From a bacterium 336/3 (lineage in GTDB: Bacteria > Bacteroidota > Bacteroidia > Cytophagales > Thermonemataceae), in contig LJIE01000001.1 of assembly GCA_001281695.1 (NCBI GenBank), forward strand, positions 2,556,586-2,620,585: a stretch of 64,000 nucleotides of DNA. Reading direction: 5' to 3'. Below are positions 35,644 through 42,808 of this stretch, piece by piece. Both the position numbers and the translations under genes were made by a program. The notes under the pieces were generated by a model that had not been told where the DNA came from, made no database searches, and saw nothing but the letters and a program-made list of their open reading frames with translations. Within the stretch, counting starts at the first letter, position 1. Each line of letters begins with the position of its first letter.

Positions 35644-36663
35644 ATGGATACAACGCTTCAAAATTTTATTCAGAATATTCCTAAAGCAGAATTACACTTG
35701 CATATTGAAGGCACTTTTGAGCCAGAACTCATGTTTGCTATTGCTCAAAGAAATAAAGTAGATTTACCTTATAAATCTGTGGAGGAACTCAGAAAAGCAT
35801 ATCAGTTTTCTTGTTTGCAAGATTTTTTGGATATTTATTACACAGGTACAAACGTACTACTCAAGGAAGAAGACTTTTATGATTTGACAATGGCTTATTT
35901 TGAAAAATGCCATGAACAGAATATCCGCCATACTGAAATCATGTTTGACCCACAAAGCCATACAGATAGAGGCGTGAGTTTTGAAACTGTTATCACAGGT
36001 ATCAATAAAGCCCGAAAAGAAGCTCAGAGCAAATATAATATTTCATCTCTTTTAATTATGTCATATTTAAGGCATTTATCAGAAGAATCTGCTTTTGAAA
36101 CACTGAAACAGTCTTTACCTTTTAAAGAGCATATCAAGGCTGTAGGGCTTGATTCTTCTGAAAAAGATAATCCTCCTTCTAAATTTGAAAGAGTTTTTGC
36201 TGCCTCCATTCAAGAAGGTTATATTCCACTTGCTCATGCAGGTGAGGAAGGTTCTGCCGAATATGTGTGGGAAGCATTAAAACTTCTCAAAATTCATCGT
36301 ATTGACCATGGAAATAGATGCTTAGAAGACAAAACACTTTTAGATTACATTATCAAAAACGATATAGCTCTTACAATTTGTCCTTTATCTAATTTGGAAC
36401 TCAAAGTAGTTGAAGATTTAAAACAGCATCCTATCAGAGAAATGCTTGATTTGGGTTTAAAAGTTACTGTAAACTCTGATGACCCTGCTTATTTTGGCGG
36501 ACAACTCACTAAAAATTTTGAAGCCATTGCAGAAAATTTAAACTTAGGAGAATCTGATATTTATGAATTTGTCCGTAACTCATTTCAGTATTCGCTACTA
36601 CCCGAAACAGAAAAACAAAAGCATTTAAAAGAATTAGAAATCTTTTATCAAGCTCATTCATAA
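35644..36663 (+). CDS. Adenine deaminase (adenosine deaminase family, Aah1-type)
   Basis: A 339-aa zinc hydrolase. Metal ligands H18 and H20 are in AELHLHIEG; further signatures are PLAHAGEEG, RIDHGNR and NSDDPAYFGG. The pattern SSEKDNPPSKFERVF, FLDIYYTGTNVLL and FDPQSHTDRG matches the adenine deaminase branch (yeast Aah1 type) more than true adenosine deaminase, so the likely reaction is adenine to hypoxanthine plus ammonia in purine salvage. Adenosine deaminase activity remains possible. Divergent from uvrB. Confidence 0.9.
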   Translation: MDTTLQNFIQNIPKAELHLHIEGTFEPELMFAIAQRNKVDLPYKSVEELRKAYQFSCLQDFLDIYYTGTNVLLKEEDFYDLTMAYFEKCHEQNIRHTEIMFDPQSHTDRGVSFETVITGINKARKEAQSKYNISSLLIMSYLRHLSEESAFETLKQSLPFKEHIKAVGLDSSEKDNPPSKFERVFAASIQEGYIPLAHAGEEGSAEYVWEALKLLKIHRIDHGNRCLEDKTLLDYIIKNDIALTICPLSNLELKVVEDLKQHPIREMLDLGLKVTVNSDDPAYFGGQLTKNFEAIAENLNLGESDIYEFVRNSFQYSLLPETEKQKHLKELEIFYQAHS

Positions 36664-36739
36664 TTTTTCTGTTTCTGATGCAACCTTTTGAGAGAATCTG
36701 CATCTTTTATATAAGTTATGTATCTTAATCATTACTTTT

Positions 36740-38233
36740 ATGAAACTATCAGGTTCTCTCGTTATTTTAATGGTATTTTGTTCGGCATTTAATATTTTAT
36801 TGGGACAAAATTCCAAAGCTCCTTGCAAATGTGAGCAAGATTTTAATTATACTATCAATTATCTTGAGAATCATTATTCTGGCTTTCAGGATAATGTAAT
36901 AGATGCCAATAAAGAACAATATAACAAGCTCAAACAAGATATTTTGGCTGATATTCAGGCTCATCAAACACCTGATATGGTTTGTTTGGCATTTATGAAA
37001 AGATACCTTGCATTTTTTAAGGATAACCATTTACAAATTTGGGGCAGTAGCATAGATGTGGACGAAAACAAACCAGAATCTATTGCTAAATTCAAAGAAA
37101 GTGATGTTTTTAAAAATAGAGAACGCATTCAATATGATTCTATGAGTGTTTATCAGTATTTGTCTAAAAGTCAAGATCCTATTGAGGGTATTTATAAAAC
37201 AAGTGTTTATGAATTTGCTGTTCTAAAAAATCAGAATAGTTTAAGGGATTATTATGCTGTGATGATTAGAAGCACCACTTCTCTTTGGGAAAGAGGACAA
37301 ATAAAATTAGATTTAAAACGGATAAATGGCAATTATTTCCAATCTATTGTGTATATGCGAAATCATAGCATGAACATCCAGAATATTACATCAGAATCTC
37401 CTATTTTTGAAATTTTTGGAGGTGTACAAAAAAATTTCCCAAAACAGGAGTCTAAAGAAATTGTAAAACAAAAATTCAGTGTTGCACCAGAAGGTGAATG
37501 GTTTCAGTTCAAGGCTCTCAATGATAGCACTCATTATGTACATATCAAAACTTTTGATGGAGCTTTGCAAACTAAATTTGATTCTGTTTACAAACAAATC
37601 ATTCCTGTCATTAAAACCAAGCCTTATCTGATCATTGATATTAGAGACAATGGTGGTGGTAGTGATAATAACTGGAAGCCTTTGGCACAATTGGCTTATA
37701 CTACTCCCTACGAATATGATAAGACCTATGTTTTCTGCACTACCGAAACTATTAAACGCTATGAGGAAATACTTGAAAAAATGCAGAAAAATCAAAAAGA
37801 TTATGGTGATGATATGATTAAATGGGCAAAAGAAAGAGTTACTTTGATGAAAAAAGCTCCTCTCAATACATTTGTGCTAGCAGGAAAGTACAAAGGAAAA
37901 AACAAATACCGAAAACAGAAACAAATTGAGCCTACTCCTAAAAAGATTATATTGATGTATAATCGGAATAGTGGTAGTGCAGCCGAAGGGATTATTTTGG
38001 ATGCGATGCATAGTAAAAAAGTAATAACCTTTGGAGAAAATTCAGGTGGATATATCACTTTTGGCAATGTGATGACCATTCCTACGCCTGAATTGAAACT
38101 AAATTTGCAAACAGCTACTCAAAAAACACCCAATAGATTTATTTATGAAAAAACTGGCATCCCTCCACAAGTAAGAGCCAATAATAATGAAGATTGGCTT
38201 GTACAGGCTTTAAATCTGTTGAAAAGCAAATAA
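36740..38233 (+). CDS. S41 family peptidase (C-terminal processing protease-like)
   Basis: A 497-aa exported protein: signal peptide KLSGSLVILMVFCSAFNILLG, then a helical N-terminal domain with paired Cys (APCKCEQDF). The S41 core begins near residue 270: YVHIKTFDGALQTKFDSVYKQII, PYLIIDIRDNGGGSDNN, then IILMYNRNSGSAAEGIIL with the likely nucleophile S413, and ITFGENSGGYITFGN. No PDZ domain is obvious. It would cleave peptides in the periplasm or outside. It may be followed in one transcript by the AlkD-like gene 34 bases further on. Confidence 0.88.
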   Translation: MKLSGSLVILMVFCSAFNILLGQNSKAPCKCEQDFNYTINYLENHYSGFQDNVIDANKEQYNKLKQDILADIQAHQTPDMVCLAFMKRYLAFFKDNHLQIWGSSIDVDENKPESIAKFKESDVFKNRERIQYDSMSVYQYLSKSQDPIEGIYKTSVYEFAVLKNQNSLRDYYAVMIRSTTSLWERGQIKLDLKRINGNYFQSIVYMRNHSMNIQNITSESPIFEIFGGVQKNFPKQESKEIVKQKFSVAPEGEWFQFKALNDSTHYVHIKTFDGALQTKFDSVYKQIIPVIKTKPYLIIDIRDNGGGSDNNWKPLAQLAYTTPYEYDKTYVFCTTETIKRYEEILEKMQKNQKDYGDDMIKWAKERVTLMKKAPLNTFVLAGKYKGKNKYRKQKQIEPTPKKIILMYNRNSGSAAEGIILDAMHSKKVITFGENSGGYITFGNVMTIPTPELKLNLQTATQKTPNRFIYEKTGIPPQVRANNNEDWLVQALNLLKSK

Positions 38234-38267
38234 TTTTTGCATACATTGGGTTATCAAAAAATCAGGT

Positions 38268-39077
38268 ATGACAACTCAAACTAAACGTAAAGGGGCTCGC
38301 TCCATCAAAGATATTCCACAGGATATTCTAAAAAAACTCAATTTGGGAGAAATAGAAACAGCCAATTTGATGGAGTGGCTTGCCATTGATACTTCAGAAC
38401 TGCTGAAAAATCTTTTGAATCAATTAAAAAGGCAAGATTATCTAAAAACAATACTCAGCAATATTGATGCTCTAAAAAAGAAAACGATTAATACTGTCAA
38501 TGAAACGATTGGTTTGAGTTTTTATCAGTTAGCTACTGAAAATAATGATAAAGACTTTTTTAGCCTCTTATCTAAACATACTTCCGATTCGGTTAGGTGT
38601 TGGGCTGCTTATATGATAGGACAGAATTCGACTTTAGAAATTGCTCAAAAACTTTCTCAAATAGCTTTTTTTGCAGCAGATAGTCATTTTGGAGTACGAG
38701 AAGTGAGTTGGCTAGCAACTCGTCCAGATATTGCAAAAAGTTTGGATAAAAGCATTGAAATTTTGTCTAAATGGTCTGTCTCTCAAGATGAAAATATCAG
38801 ACGTTTTGCCAGTGAAGCTACACGCCCCAGAGGTGTCTGGTGCGAGCATATTGAGATTCTCAAGAAAACCCCTGCCCTAGCACTTGATATTTTAGAGCCT
38901 CTTAAATCGGATAAAGCTAAATATGTACAAGACAGTGTAGGCAACTGGCTTAACGATGCCAGCAAAACACAATCTGAATTTGTAAAAGATTTGTGTAAAA
39001 AGTGGGAAAAAGAAAGTTCTACCAAAGAAACAGCCTATATTATCAAAAAAGCTTTAAGAACTCTTCAGAAACAATAA
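38268..39077 (+). CDS. DNA alkylation repair protein (AlkD-like HEAT repeat)
   Basis: A 269-aa all-helical HEAT-repeat protein. The DNA alkylation repair family is suggested by VRCWAAYMIGQ, FAADSHFGVREVSWLATRPDIAK, SVSQDENIRRFASEATRPRGVWCEHI and YVQDSVGNWLNDASKTQSEFV. AlkD glycosylases remove bulky or cationic 3-methyladenine and 7-methylguanine without base flipping. The conserved Trp and Asp/Arg of the DNA-binding concave surface appear present (W and D in RR-ASEATRPRG-W), but catalytic activity is not certain because some relatives only bind DNA. Confidence 0.85.
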   Translation: MTTQTKRKGARSIKDIPQDILKKLNLGEIETANLMEWLAIDTSELLKNLLNQLKRQDYLKTILSNIDALKKKTINTVNETIGLSFYQLATENNDKDFFSLLSKHTSDSVRCWAAYMIGQNSTLEIAQKLSQIAFFAADSHFGVREVSWLATRPDIAKSLDKSIEILSKWSVSQDENIRRFASEATRPRGVWCEHIEILKKTPALALDILEPLKSDKAKYVQDSVGNWLNDASKTQSEFVKDLCKKWEKESSTKETAYIIKKALRTLQKQ

Positions 39078-39110
39078 AAAACACATTTTCACAAAATATT
39101 CAAAATAATA

Positions 39111-39140
39111 TTTGGATTTATATAAAAAATATTATTTTTG
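39111..39140 (+). promoter_or_regulatory. Promoter of the SAM riboswitch transcript
   Basis: TTTG (39111-39114), 18 bases, TATTTTTG (39133-39140), a match to TTTG-N19-TAnnTTTG. Predicted initiation is near 39145, about 20 bases before the P1 stem of the riboswitch. Confidence 0.75.
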
Positions 39141-39164
39141 CACATCGTTCATTTACATCAGATA

Positions 39165-39264
39165 CTTATCCAGAAAGATGGAGGGAATTGACCCTGTGAA
39201 GTCTTGGCAACCATCAGCAATGAAAAGGTGCCAAATTCAACTCGAATATTTCGAGAAAGATAAG
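39165..39264 (+). ncRNA. SAM-I (S-box) riboswitch
   Basis: The S-box core is read directly: P1 CTTATC (39165-39170) with GATAAG (39259-39264), AGAAAGATGGAGGGAATTGACC, GTGAAGTCTTGGCAACC, GAAAAGGTGCCAAATTC, and a P4 hairpin CTCGAA-TAT-TTCGAG (39241-39255). These are the conserved segments that bind S-adenosylmethionine. It has its own promoter and a downstream intrinsic terminator. The segment AGATAAGTTAG (39258-39268), which includes the 3' strand of P1, can pair over 11 bases (two G-T wobbles) with CTAGCTTGTCT (39310-39320) in the terminator, so a transcriptional off switch is likely. The first gene downstream is a chitinase, not a methionine gene. Confidence 0.94.
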
Positions 39265-39298
39265 TTAGAAAATTTGCACTTCATTATTCTTTGATATT

Positions 39299-39336
39299 AA
39301 AATGCTCTTCTAGCTTGTCTGAAGAGCATTTTTGCT
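39299..39336 (+). terminator. Riboswitch-controlled terminator
   Basis: AAAATGCTCTTC (39299-39310), a 10-base loop, GAAGAGCATTTT (39321-39332), then TTGCTTTT. It lies 34 bases after the riboswitch. Its loop is the target of the proposed antiterminator pairing (39258-39268 with 39310-39320). The stretch 39337-39519, up to the chitinase start, shows no ORF or clear element. Confidence 0.9.
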
Positions 39337-39519
39337 TTTCAGTCTTCATAGTCCTATTCTATTTTTTCTATTCGGTGAATAAAATCTTTTGGAATGATAT
39401 TTCATCATTTTAAAACCTATTTTATGATGCTTACGTATTCATTTTTACAGAAAGATTTTGGGTAAAACCACTCTGATTTTCAACACAAACAACGCTTAAA
39501 CAATTAAACTATTAAATTT

Positions 39520-41133
39520 ATGAAATTTTTTCTATTTGTATTACTCGCAACTATTGGTTGTTTATCAGAAAGTTACAGTCAGGAAAATCAAGCTTATCGT
39601 GCCATTGATGACCTTCTGACAAATGCTCAATGGAATGCCATGTTTCCTAGAAGAGCTGGCACTTATGGAACTCATCCACAAGGATATACTTTAGATTTTT
39701 ATTCATTTGCCAATTTTAAACAAGCCATTCAAGAACTTTCTGATTACAGAGTTCACATCCGAAAAAAACCTAATGTATGGGGCGAACTGATTACTATTAC
39801 AAGAGTTTCAACCAATCATACTTATAATTATAGTGATGTGGATATTTCTTGGCACAATAACACTACTCCAGAAGTAATTATCAATATCAATTTTGCAGAT
39901 TTTGTAAATACAGCCTCAGAAATCAATAATAAAAGAGAGTTAGCAGCTTTTTTAGCTAATATTTCTAAAGAAACTACTGGAGGATGGCAACCCATTGGTA
40001 GTGGATTAGATGGAGATTATACACTTTGGGGTTTATATTTTGTACACGAATTGGGTTATACAAGTAGTAATTGTAATAATGCTTATACATCTCCACATTC
40101 TGAATATCCACCCGTTTCTAATAAATGTTATTATGGAAGAGGCCCGATTCAGTTGTCATGGAATTATAATTATGGACAGTTTAGTAAGTTTTTATATGAG
40201 GACAAAACCGTTTTGCTCAATAACCCTGATGCTATTCAACAAGATGGTGTATTAGCTTTTAAGTCAGCTATTTGGTTTTGGATGATGCCTCAATGGCCTA
40301 AGCCCTCTTGTCATCAGGTGATGCATGACAAATGGTTGCCTCAGAATGGAGAGTATGTTACTAACAAAATGTATAAAAAAGGATTCGCCCATACCAATAA
40401 TATCATCAATGGTGGCTTGGAGTGTAGAAATACCTCTGGTGTTGCTTTTACACAAAAAGTTGTTTTGCGTTCTCAACTTTACAAATATTATTTAGGAATT
40501 TTAGGGTTTTCTCCTGCCCAAATTAATAACGAGGATTCAGGAGATTATACTACTCTATGCCACGAAGGAGCCAGCAATGCTATGGAAAATTATAAAAGTG
40601 CCTATGTAATTGCCGATGCCCCTTTAGCTGTCAAATTAGGCAGTTTTAAAGCTCAATTAAAGTCTAAATATGTTGAATTGTTATGGACTCTTTATTCTTC
40701 AGATATCAGTTATATAGAAATTGAAAAATCTGACATGCATTTATCTAATTTTCAAACTATTACTAAAATACATCATCAGCCTGTCCATGAGTATAGTTAC
40801 CACGATTTTCAGGTTAAAGAATGTTATTATCGTCTTAAAATCGTAGAAAATGGTAGCAATATTATTTATTCAAAGCCTATTTATTTTACACCTTATCCCG
40901 AAAAAAATTCCGTAGAAATATATCCAAATCCTGCTTCTGATATTGTTTGGATAAAAGGTTTAGAAGACAATGAAAAAATCAGCATTTATGATATTTGGGG
41001 AAAGACTTTTTATAAAAATATTCCTTATAACGCTCAAATTGGCATTTCTCTTGCTAATTTTCCAAAAGGAACTTATTATTTGCATATACAAACCAAAGAA
41101 AATTATAAAATCCTCAAGTTCATTAAATTGTAG
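39520..41133 (+). CDS. GH19 chitinase-like enzyme with T9SS type A sorting domain
   Basis: A 537-aa exported protein with signal peptide KFFLFVLLATIGCLSESYSQ. The glycoside hydrolase 19 domain covers about residues 120-325: SKETTGGWQP with the acid E151 (the usual HETTGG has Lys in place of His), LYFVHELGY with the second Glu E177, CYYGRGPIQLSWNYNYG, and NIINGGLEC. It should cleave chitin or a related beta-1,4-GlcNAc polymer, possibly peptidoglycan. A beta domain (about 375-450) and a type A sorting domain (VEIYPNPASDIVWI, DIWGKTF, FPKGTYYLHI, LKFIKL) follow, so it should be exported by the T9SS. It lies 184 bases after the SAM riboswitch terminator and is the only gene that could be controlled by it. 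Confidence 0.92.
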   Translation: MKFFLFVLLATIGCLSESYSQENQAYRAIDDLLTNAQWNAMFPRRAGTYGTHPQGYTLDFYSFANFKQAIQELSDYRVHIRKKPNVWGELITITRVSTNHTYNYSDVDISWHNNTTPEVIININFADFVNTASEINNKRELAAFLANISKETTGGWQPIGSGLDGDYTLWGLYFVHELGYTSSNCNNAYTSPHSEYPPVSNKCYYGRGPIQLSWNYNYGQFSKFLYEDKTVLLNNPDAIQQDGVLAFKSAIWFWMMPQWPKPSCHQVMHDKWLPQNGEYVTNKMYKKGFAHTNNIINGGLECRNTSGVAFTQKVVLRSQLYKYYLGILGFSPAQINNEDSGDYTTLCHEGASNAMENYKSAYVIADAPLAVKLGSFKAQLKSKYVELLWTLYSSDISYIEIEKSDMHLSNFQTITKIHHQPVHEYSYHDFQVKECYYRLKIVENGSNIIYSKPIYFTPYPEKNSVEIYPNPASDIVWIKGLEDNEKISIYDIWGKTFYKNIPYNAQIGISLANFPKGTYYLHIQTKENYKILKFIKL

Positions 41134-41141
41134 TTTCAAAT

Positions 41142-41169
41142 AAAGAAAAGGCTTTTTAGCCTTTTCTTT
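41142..41169. terminator. Bidirectional terminator after the chitinase and the kinase genes
   Basis: AAAGAAAAGGCT (41142-41153), TTTT loop, AGCCTTTTCTTT (41158-41169): a 12-bp stem with A/T tracts on both sides. It serves convergent genes on both strands. Confidence 0.85.
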
Positions 41170-41177
41170 TGAATTTT

Positions 41178-42260
41178 TCAATCTTTTTTTATAATTATTA
41201 ATCCTTTTCCTTTCAGTTTACTTGTAGTTTTTTCTTCTTTTGTTTCTTCCTTTTTAGAAAAACTAATTTTTAAACTCCCTTTTGTTTCATCTTCTTCTTT
41301 TTTAGATTCCCAATAGCTTTCTACATACGATTTTCGAGGTTCTTTTTCGAGTTTGGTGAGTTCTTCTTCTTTTTTTAAATCTAAGTTTTTGAGAAAGTCA
41401 AATATTTCTTCAGCATCTGGGCGTTGAGATGCATCATGGTTCATCATGGAACCGATGAGGCGTTTTAGTTTATTGGGCAAGCGTGTATCCACAATTTTCA
41501 ACTCTTTTCCTTCGTTAGTAGCCTGACATGCATACACATATTTTTTAGGAAATTCGGGTAAATCTCCTTGTAAGTAAATACAATACAAAAGTCCTAAAGC
41601 AAAAATATCAGATTTTATAGTAAGGTTTTCAGACTTTTCTTTTCCTTGCACATATCTTGCTAGTTCAGGTGAATAGAAAACCATATCTCCTACTACTTCT
41701 TCTTGCAACTCAGGAGGTTTTGACGAAAAATAACTATTGTCAAAATCTATAAGTTTTGTTGTGTAAAAATTTGTTCTTGTTTGCTTGATAAGCACATTAT
41801 CGGGTTTTAAATCGCCATGTACAATACCTGCTTTGTGCAAAATATTTAAACTATGAGCTATTGTCTTTAAAATCAGGATTTTGTTAGGTAATGGCAAAGA
41901 ATATACTTCATCTGTTGAAAGCGAGGCTACATCAATTTTTTCTGTTACTTTGTAATAAGTACTTCCACATCTGAAGAAATCTAACGTAAATACCAAATTT
42001 CCGCCTACTCCACATTTTTCATTGATTTGCTCCATCAGAGCTTTATGATGTACTTCAAAGCGTTCGCATTCTTTTCTTTTTCGTTCTTTGGAAGCCACGC
42101 TCCCTGGTGAGCCTTCTGTGGGGTATTTAGGAGCAAGAAACTCCTTCATAAAATATACTTTATCGCCTTTTTGGGCAAAAGTCCACTTGCTCAAGCCTCC
42201 ACCTGCTGTGGTAAAATCTTGCAAAATTTTATATCCATTGATGATTTCGCCCTTTAACAT
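41178..42260 (-). CDS. Serine/threonine protein kinase
   Basis: A 360-aa cytoplasmic kinase; the ATG at 42260 (MLKGEIINGYKIL) is chosen because the extra upstream codons are not kinase-like. Residues about 5-290 form the kinase domain: GGGLSKW loop, catalytic Lys K39 (YFMKEF), HGDLKPDN at 148-155 with catalytic D150, DFD in place of DFG (D172), and SPELARYVQGK. The HGD and DFD variants occur in some bacterial kinases of signalling modules, so activity is plausible. The tail after residue 300 is Lys/Glu-rich and disordered. There is no transmembrane segment. Divergent from a small membrane protein gene. Confidence 0.9.
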   Translation of the reverse strand: MLKGEIINGYKILQDFTTAGGGLSKWTFAQKGDKVYFMKEFLAPKYPTEGSPGSVASKERKRKECERFEVHHKALMEQINEKCGVGGNLVFTLDFFRCGSTYYKVTEKIDVASLSTDEVYSLPLPNKILILKTIAHSLNILHKAGIVHGDLKPDNVLIKQTRTNFYTTKLIDFDNSYFSSKPPELQEEVVGDMVFYSPELARYVQGKEKSENLTIKSDIFALGLLYCIYLQGDLPEFPKKYVYACQATNEGKELKIVDTRLPNKLKRLIGSMMNHDASQRPDAEEIFDFLKNLDLKKEEELTKLEKEPRKSYVESYWESKKEEDETKGSLKISFSKKEETKEEKTTSKLKGKGLIIIKKD

Positions 42261-42280
42261 GAGATATTTGGTCAGATAGC

Positions 42281-42310
42281 TTTGGTTATTATAAGAATTT
42301 AATATATTTG
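42281..42310 (+). promoter_or_regulatory. Promoter for the membrane protein at 42341
   Basis: TTTG (42281-42284), 18 bases, TATATTTG (42303-42310), a match to TTTG-N19-TAnnTTTG. Predicted initiation is near 42315, 25 bases before the ATG. Confidence 0.65.
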
Positions 42311-42340
42311 AGATGCACAAATTTACAAAATTTTATACTT

Positions 42341-42808
42341 ATGATACCCAAAAACTTCTTTTCTACACTTAGAATTTTACATTTAGCAATTAGTTTTGGT
42401 ACTTTGGCAATCATTGTCATTTTTTATGTTTTGAGTAAAAATCAACCAGAACCTCTTCTCACTCAAGATAACAAAATGCTTGTGTATATTTTCCCTGTTT
42501 TTGCTATAGTAGTAGGAGCTACTGGTATTTTTCTAAGTAAACAATTTTTAGCTAAAATAAAAGATCAAAAATTATTAGACAAACTAAACCAATATCGAGT
42601 TGCTTATATTGTTCGTTGGGCAATGATTGAAGGAGGTAGTGTCATGTTGGTGATGGGATTTTTTATGAGTAAACAAATTGCATTTTTGGGTTTAGCGAGT
42701 GCTGGATTGGTATTTTTACTTTTGCAAAAAGCGGATATCAATACTTTTCAAAATGATGTTCAATTATCCTCAGAAGAGAAAAAAGAGTTAGAAAGTACTT
42801 TTAGATAG
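42341..42808 (+). CDS. Conserved membrane protein of unknown function
   Basis: A 155-aa protein with four hydrophobic segments (SFGTLAIIVIFYVL; YIFPVFAIVVGATGIFL; IEGGSVMLVMGFFM; AFLGLASAGLVFLLL). The ATG at 42341 is preceded by a good promoter; an in-frame TTG upstream is less likely. The conserved core Y-R-V-A-Y-I-V-R-W-A-x-I-E-G is typical of a short Bacteroidota membrane family with no assigned function. It ends in a Glu/Lys-rich tail. Confidence 0.78.
   Translation: MIPKNFFSTLRILHLAISFGTLAIIVIFYVLSKNQPEPLLTQDNKMLVYIFPVFAIVVGATGIFLSKQFLAKIKDQKLLDKLNQYRVAYIVRWAMIEGGSVMLVMGFFMSKQIAFLGLASAGLVFLLLQKADINTFQNDVQLSSEEKKELESTFR

Follow-up and report, generated by a model that had tools for sequence, protein, structure and literature searches.

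A predicted SAM-I riboswitch leader, most likely duplicated from a metB-like gene, upstream of a secreted-chitinase gene in a member of the Cytophagales

The window analysed here, a 64,000-nt stretch of the bacterium 336/3 (GCA_001281695.1, contig LJIE01000001.1, positions 2,556,586-2,620,585), carries on its plus strand a SAM-I (S-box) riboswitch leader followed by a gene for a GH19 chitinase. The aptamer comprises P1 to P4 (39163-39266) and matches RF00162 over model positions 1-108 of 108, with 86.7 bits (cmscan, E 3.6e-19) against a gathering score of 44.4; it is the sole match in the window to reach its gathering score. The four-helix core is complete, 31 of 33 aptamer pairs are standard, and the L2-J3/4 pseudoknot (UUGA/UCAA, placed by hand) has all four of its pairs both here and in the copy that precedes a metB-like gene elsewhere in the genome. 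Among the six SAM-I riboswitches of the source genome (4.71 Mb, 13 contigs), the window aptamer has the top score, the metB-like copy reaching 77.3 bits. The leader promoter, TTTG-N18-TATTTTTG (39111-39140, plus strand), conforms to the -33/-7 consensus of Bacteroidetes and attains the full score of 11, which is shared by five of the genome's six SAM-I leaders when the window's is counted.

Downstream of the aptamer, an intrinsic terminator hairpin with a T-run occupies 39300-39333 (plus strand; -14 to -15 kcal/mol). Its stem is formed by AAATGCTCTTC and GAAGAGCATTT (39300-39310 and 39321-39331), which enclose a loop of 10 nt, and the T-run follows directly; the hairpin is missing from a generic terminator scan because that scan permits loops of 3-8 nt only. 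A sequence-only reading of this DNA had proposed the promoter, the complete S-box core and the terminator, all of which are present in these places, as well as 11 pairs between 39258-39268 and 39310-39320. These pairs are exact to the base, two of them being G-U, and the helix extends to 13 contiguous pairs, with the P1 3' strand and the bases that follow it as the 5' arm (39258-39270) and the terminator loop region as the 3' arm (39308-39320). Of the folds available to 39255-39337, this antiterminator has the lowest energy (z -2.61; an equally good fold was obtained in 1 of 200 shuffles), and fold prediction makes it mutually exclusive with the terminator. An expression platform that competes with P1 is thereby predicted in the window leader. 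When folds were forced without ligand, the metB-like leader favoured the antiterminator (-50.5 kcal/mol) over the terminator (-47.1) and over P1 plus terminator (-46.9), whereas the corresponding values for the window leader are -46.8, -46.9 and -44.2 kcal/mol; antiterminator and terminator differ little in energy in this longer leader, a less clear-cut outcome than in the metB-like leader. By its sequence, the window leader is a switch that has been maintained, with somewhat less bias toward readthrough than its metB-like counterpart.

The gene behind the leader (39520-41133, plus strand) encodes a protein of 537 aa, for which the earlier designation as a T9SS-exported GH19 chitinase is borne out by domain scores above their cut-offs. 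The GH19 domain (PF00182, 4e-48) scores 164.7 against 25.5 bits, and residues 124-333 resemble 31 distinct solved GH19 sequences (E <=0.001; best 6.6e-50). The T9SS type A sorting domain is recognised by PF18962 (3.1e-11, 43.8 against 27 bits) and TIGR04183 (47.2 against 23 bits), and the start of the protein, judged by eye, is signal-peptide-like. Leader and chitinase lie on the same strand, with approximately 184 nt between the terminator and the ATG. This interval contains no ORF of at least 60 aa, and its top promoter score under the -33/-7 rule is 8, within the range of shuffled sequences (7-10). However, 23 of the 35 genes in the window, the chitinase included, score below 10 by the same rule, so the missing second consensus promoter says little. 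On the 3' side of the gene, a terminator-like hairpin (41142-41169, plus strand) has 12 pairs and the tail TGAATTTTTC; taken alone it is weak, as the scan gave 3 sites in 6 kb compared with 3.0 in shuffles. The GC content of the chitinase gene (0.326) matches that of the window (0.327). The gene upstream of the leader (38268-39077) has a relative in two of six other genomes compared and in none of three same-genus genomes.

The leader has one close counterpart. Comparison of window positions 36001-42500 with the 10 kb around the metB-like leader by blastn gave a single match, 39093-39333 (plus strand), in which 198 of 256 columns are identical (77%); this homology spans the region from the promoter to the T-run and then ends. 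The metB-like leader (G000:C1:2554149-2554403, minus strand) lies outside the window, 41 kb away and in opposite orientation, and genome-wide no further near-full-length copy was found; the match to the metH leader is confined to the aptamer. In a FastTree phylogeny of 30 chosen leaders of the same kind (kind A, see below), the window and metB-like leaders are sisters with a support of 0.999, the window leader having the longer branch (0.20, compared with 0.11 for the metB-like leader). Both resemble each other and their relatives in promoter type, spacing, terminator and antiterminator, the promoter consensus being present in the metB-like copy despite divergence of the surrounding bases, whereas the window leader differs by a shorter P3, a diverged spacer, the loop CTAGCTTGTC and the lack of a met gene behind it. 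The metB-like copy and most related leaders carry CTGACTTRTC or a sequence near it, from which the window copy differs by a change of GA to AG, with all antiterminator pairs still standing by way of wobble swaps. Since the common loop, CTGACTTGTC, is found in the metB-like copy, it is the window copy that is derived at these bases. Collectively, the leader most likely arose by duplication of the metB-like leader inside one genome, an origin that the sequence-only reading had not recognised.

The metB-like gene is present behind its own leader and encodes a PLP enzyme of Cys/Met metabolism, the family of which is clear, although its exact activity is not; none of the 25 matches listed reached an NCBIfam cut-off. 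Its closest relative among 18 other genomes is 67% identical (G015) and likewise stands behind a SAM-I riboswitch (L007), and the three same-genus genomes have metB-like relatives of 51-53% identity only. The sequence-only reading had offered, among its interpretations, that an original met gene had been lost from behind the window leader. That part is disfavoured, since the metB-like gene is present behind the donor leader, the homology ends at the terminator, and a tblastn search of the window (E 0.01) with metB, metH, metY, metX, cysH and nhaC-like proteins found no remnant; the other part, a predicted SAM-OFF leader upstream of a T9SS chitinase gene, stands. It is possible that the duplication once included metB, which later disappeared without a trace.

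The copy has diverged in a highly uneven manner. The two leaders differ at 59 of 234 aligned bases, distributed as 22/60 upstream, 15/104 in the aptamer, 17/33 in the spacer, 2/32 in the terminator hairpin and 3/5 after the hairpin. Across 48 pairs of the aptamer, terminator and pseudoknot, the window copy has two that are non-standard and the metB-like copy four. Random placing of all 59 substitutions gave a mean of 18.6 non-standard pairs, and none of 20,000 trials was as low as two; when only half of the substitutions were placed, the mean was 11.9 and a single trial in 20,000 was as low. This null spreads changes evenly, P3 is poorly aligned (a 10-nt gap), and the direction of change is known for the loop alone. 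In agreement with these counts, one P4 pair is altered on both sides between the copies (G-C/A-T), and all 13 antiterminator pairs hold in both, through two one-sided wobble swaps. By this comparison of aligned bases, the helices of the window copy are kept far beyond random substitution, which argues against a decayed relic.

The occurrence of SAM-I elsewhere in the order provides the background for its position here. The other five SAM-I riboswitches of the source genome precede metH, a metY-like gene, cysH, a gene for an NhaC-like transporter (by TIGR00931, with a score under its cut-off) and the metB-like gene. SAM-I is carried by 334 of 390 genomes of the order (E 1e-8), and the 13 SAM-I riboswitches in three same-genus and four other same-family genomes all precede metH or metY. 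In total, 163 loci were read, composed of 69 matches from a first survey and a further 12, 22 and 60 from a wider search, which listed the best scores first up to a limit and under stricter filters, so that weak SAM-I are under-represented beyond the first 69. To label the downstream genes, the first three ORFs of at least 100 aa on the strand of the riboswitch were compared with seven reference proteins by blastp (E 1e-8); the metB and metY labels are rough, as these belong to one superfamily, and a few label matches are weak (e.g., L182). The first recognised gene was metH at 62 loci, metY at 51, metB at 12, metX at 12, cysH at five, nhaC-like at one and a chitinase at one, with 19 unclassified by blastp. 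Pfam, applied to 18 of these 19, identified SAM synthetase (three), PALP (three), cysteine-desulfurase-like aminotransferase class V (two), TonB plug (two), an amino-acid permease, YceI, and DUF6364 plus PIN (one each), and left five proteins without a family, four of them of about 330-360 aa and the fifth at L184; the nineteenth locus, L177, has just a short ORF 1.5 kb downstream. The expectation that SAM-I normally controls methionine and cysteine genes agrees with this census, in which sulfur genes predominate and the window's is the only one of the 163 loci with a chitinase behind it. The chitinase target is thus a single case, although a few other SAM-I riboswitches also lack an evident sulfur gene: L177 (no 100-aa ORF for 1.5 kb) and L176 (a YceI-like protein), both in G031, L031 in G038 (a DUF6364 plus PIN pair) and L184 in G022 (an unknown ORF).

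By their P1, the SAM-I leaders of the order fall into two kinds, A (79 loci) and B (TTTATA type, 84 loci). Terminators were matched at 22 of 79 kind A loci and 3 of 84 kind B loci, compared with 0/79 and 1/84 in shuffled regions. Eighteen of the 22 kind A matches, those of the window and metB-like leaders included, show by eye a hairpin that resembles GCTCTTCTGACTTRTCGGAAGAGC and is followed by a T-run, located some 35-50 nt after the aptamer. These 18 precede genes labelled metB (11) and metH (three), PALP genes (three) and the chitinase gene (one), and the platform is found across families of the order (L038, L017, L136-L139, L246, L248, L257 and others). The loop of these hairpins repeats the P1 5' strand, with CTTATC in several members, a repetition that explains the switch.

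The chitinase itself has a different distribution. At E 1e-10, 10 of the 390 genomes of the order, the source genome counted, contain a GH19 relative, and none of the three same-genus and four other same-family genomes does so. A scan of named genomes yielded 24 chitinase-relative loci, two of them weak or partial (L126 and L127), the best being 70% identical over its best segment (Flavobacterium bernardetii). A FastTree phylogeny of the GH19 part places the chitinase of the window with Flavobacterium sequences, beside a branch formed by L125 and the f19/g35 copies; as this neighbouring branch is long, the exact place of the window protein is unsure. The chitinase gene was likely gained horizontally. 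An arrival of the leader together with the chitinase is disfavoured, because none of the 24 relative loci carries SAM-I in the fetched flanks (at most 6 kb, less where a contig ended); a further region, L091 of G023, is likewise without SAM-I. Additionally, four of 20 relatives (L104, L105, L108 and L112) have a CCCCTGAAAA/G motif 67-74 nt ahead of the chitinase start codon; these loci belong to two Flavobacterium genomes, a contig labelled as a Limnohabitans MAG, and Bizionia. Upstream of the window chitinase this motif is absent. The GH19 gene of L105 groups with Flavobacterium though its contig carries the Limnohabitans MAG label, possibly a binning error.

The reading that we favour, and hold to be probable, is that an intact SAM-I leader, duplicated from the metB-like gene, serves as a SAM-OFF attenuator of a probably horizontally acquired chitinase gene. 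Transcription would start at the leader promoter (39111-39140). With SAM bound, P1 would remain closed and the terminator would form, giving rise to an RNA of roughly 190 nt that ends near 39333; with SAM (methionine) scarce, the P1 3' strand would pair with the terminator loop and the polymerase would read through, upon which the chitinase would be produced and leave the cell through the type IX system. The same logic, termination upon closure of P1, had been put forward by the sequence-only reading, and as a prediction it gains support from the mutually exclusive terminator and antiterminator. We infer control of the chitinase by the leader, and with it SAM binding, termination in vivo, readthrough into the gene, export and a physiological purpose, from position, promoter and preserved structure, on which grounds a tie between chitin degradation and SAM appears to be the best remaining reading. 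Counting against such control, the approximately 184 nt before the ATG leave room for a promoter of another type, and the arrangement of leader and chitinase is known from one genome. The same holds for the lack of SAM-I in the fetched flanks of the 24 chitinase-relative loci, for the nearly equal ligand-free folds of the window leader and for its longer branch in the leader tree. A more specific proposal, to which we give about an even chance, is that the leader was copied as a ready-made cassette to a place before the horizontally gained chitinase gene, so that falling SAM would switch on the degradation of extracellular chitin (or of cell walls). If true, SAM-I would work outside sulfur metabolism, with methionine/SAM status governing a secreted polymer-degrading enzyme, and the rewiring of a riboswitch by duplication could be read directly in one genome. 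Ideas on how riboswitches acquire targets come mostly from scattered distributions; in the present case a single genome contains the donor leader, its copy and the new target, which makes the rewiring step directly testable.

This favoured reading has to be weighed against the view that the unit from promoter to terminator is a stand-alone, SAM-responsive, terminated small RNA, acting in trans or having no target, with the chitinase served by its own promoter. We regard this as rather unlikely, yet several observations speak for it: a duplicated stretch that runs from promoter to terminator, its homology ending at the T-run, fits a small RNA equally well, the bases just before P1 and those of the terminator are well kept between the copies, about 184 nt separate the terminator from the chitinase ATG, and the order has other SAM-I without an evident sulfur gene (L031, L177, L184). 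The kept terminator sequence, however, is explained by a leader type common to the order, and a plain terminated small RNA needs no antiterminator, which has been retained here through two pairing-preserving changes; the lack of a visible second consensus promoter between terminator and ATG is a further, though weak, argument against a small RNA. In Listeria, the SAM riboswitches SreA and SreB reportedly act in trans as small RNAs, and were the window unit to do so, it would share with them a terminated SAM-I transcript and a role outside methionine genes.

We consider it improbable that the leader, perhaps once accompanied by a met gene, is a duplicate that no longer matters, with the chitinase behind it by accident. 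Such a relic would agree with the restriction of the arrangement to a single genome, with GH19 being unfound (E 1e-10) in the seven same-genus and same-family genomes whose 13 SAM-I riboswitches all precede metH or metY, and with the longer branch of the window leader (0.20 against 0.11). It is at odds with a structure kept far beyond neutral expectation, with an aptamer that outscores the metB-like copy (86.7 against 77.3 bits) and with a window free of met gene remnants. A chance S-box-like sequence has virtually no probability given an E of 3.6e-19, the accompanying promoter, terminator and antiterminator, and a homologous leader before a met gene; chance is further excluded because the metB-like leader repeats the layout and related terminators occur in other leaders of the order.

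Compared with the SAM-I class (RF00162), the window leader has the same full-length P1-P4 fold with pseudoknot, the same type of terminator/antiterminator platform and the same predicted OFF logic, but it precedes a secreted chitinase rather than a gene that serves the metabolism or transport of methionine, cysteine or SAM, the usual mark of a SAM-I regulon. According to Barrick and Breaker 2007 (PMC2258182), SAM-I occurs in Bacteroidetes, and outside Firmicutes control is most commonly exerted by translation attenuation, which would make the terminator platform of the window leader a minority type. The same paper describes antisense control of a sulfur operon by a SAM-I riboswitch, a case that resembles the window in combining a terminator/antiterminator with an unusual arrangement, although the RNA there is antisense to the sulfur operon, whereas the window gene lies in sense and is non-sulfur. 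Searches of the open-licence literature yielded no report of SAM-I before a chitinase, nor of methionine/SAM status governing a secreted polymer-degrading enzyme; in the available part of PMC3766115 the word 'chitin' does not occur.

A separate observation concerns the kind B leaders. Kind B aptamers are often followed, 5-16 nt on (mostly 8-12), by the ATG of a short ORF with several consecutive cysteines at its end. A strict rule, which demanded an ATG, 8-90 codons, CCC among the final residues and a position at most 700 nt after the aptamer, picked out such ORFs at 38 of 84 kind B loci and at none of the 79 of kind A; in 34 cases the distance from aptamer to ATG is 5-16 nt, and in the other four it is 63-76 nt. 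They precede genes labelled metY (30), cysH (three), metX (one) and nhaC-like (one), and three unclassified genes. As a control, one such ORF was found in 641,602 bases taken from both strands elsewhere at the first 81 loci, mostly coding DNA and hence not fully matched. In the source genome, CCCC followed by a stop is present at five places, three of which follow SAM-I (L039, L040 and L037, all kind B and outside the window) and two of which have no in-frame ATG; the window has no poly-Cys ORF by the strict rule. Polycysteine ORFs have been described in mycobacteria (Canestrari 2020, as referenced in PMC9031893), and PMC8632094 presents a motif, uORFC-8-2, in which tandem cysteine codons precede a tRNA-synthetase gene; among the literature matches listed, there was no report of SAM-I combined with a poly-Cys leader. 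A kind B leader with such an ORF looks like a two-input device, in which the aptamer would sense SAM and stalling of the ribosome would report on cysteine.
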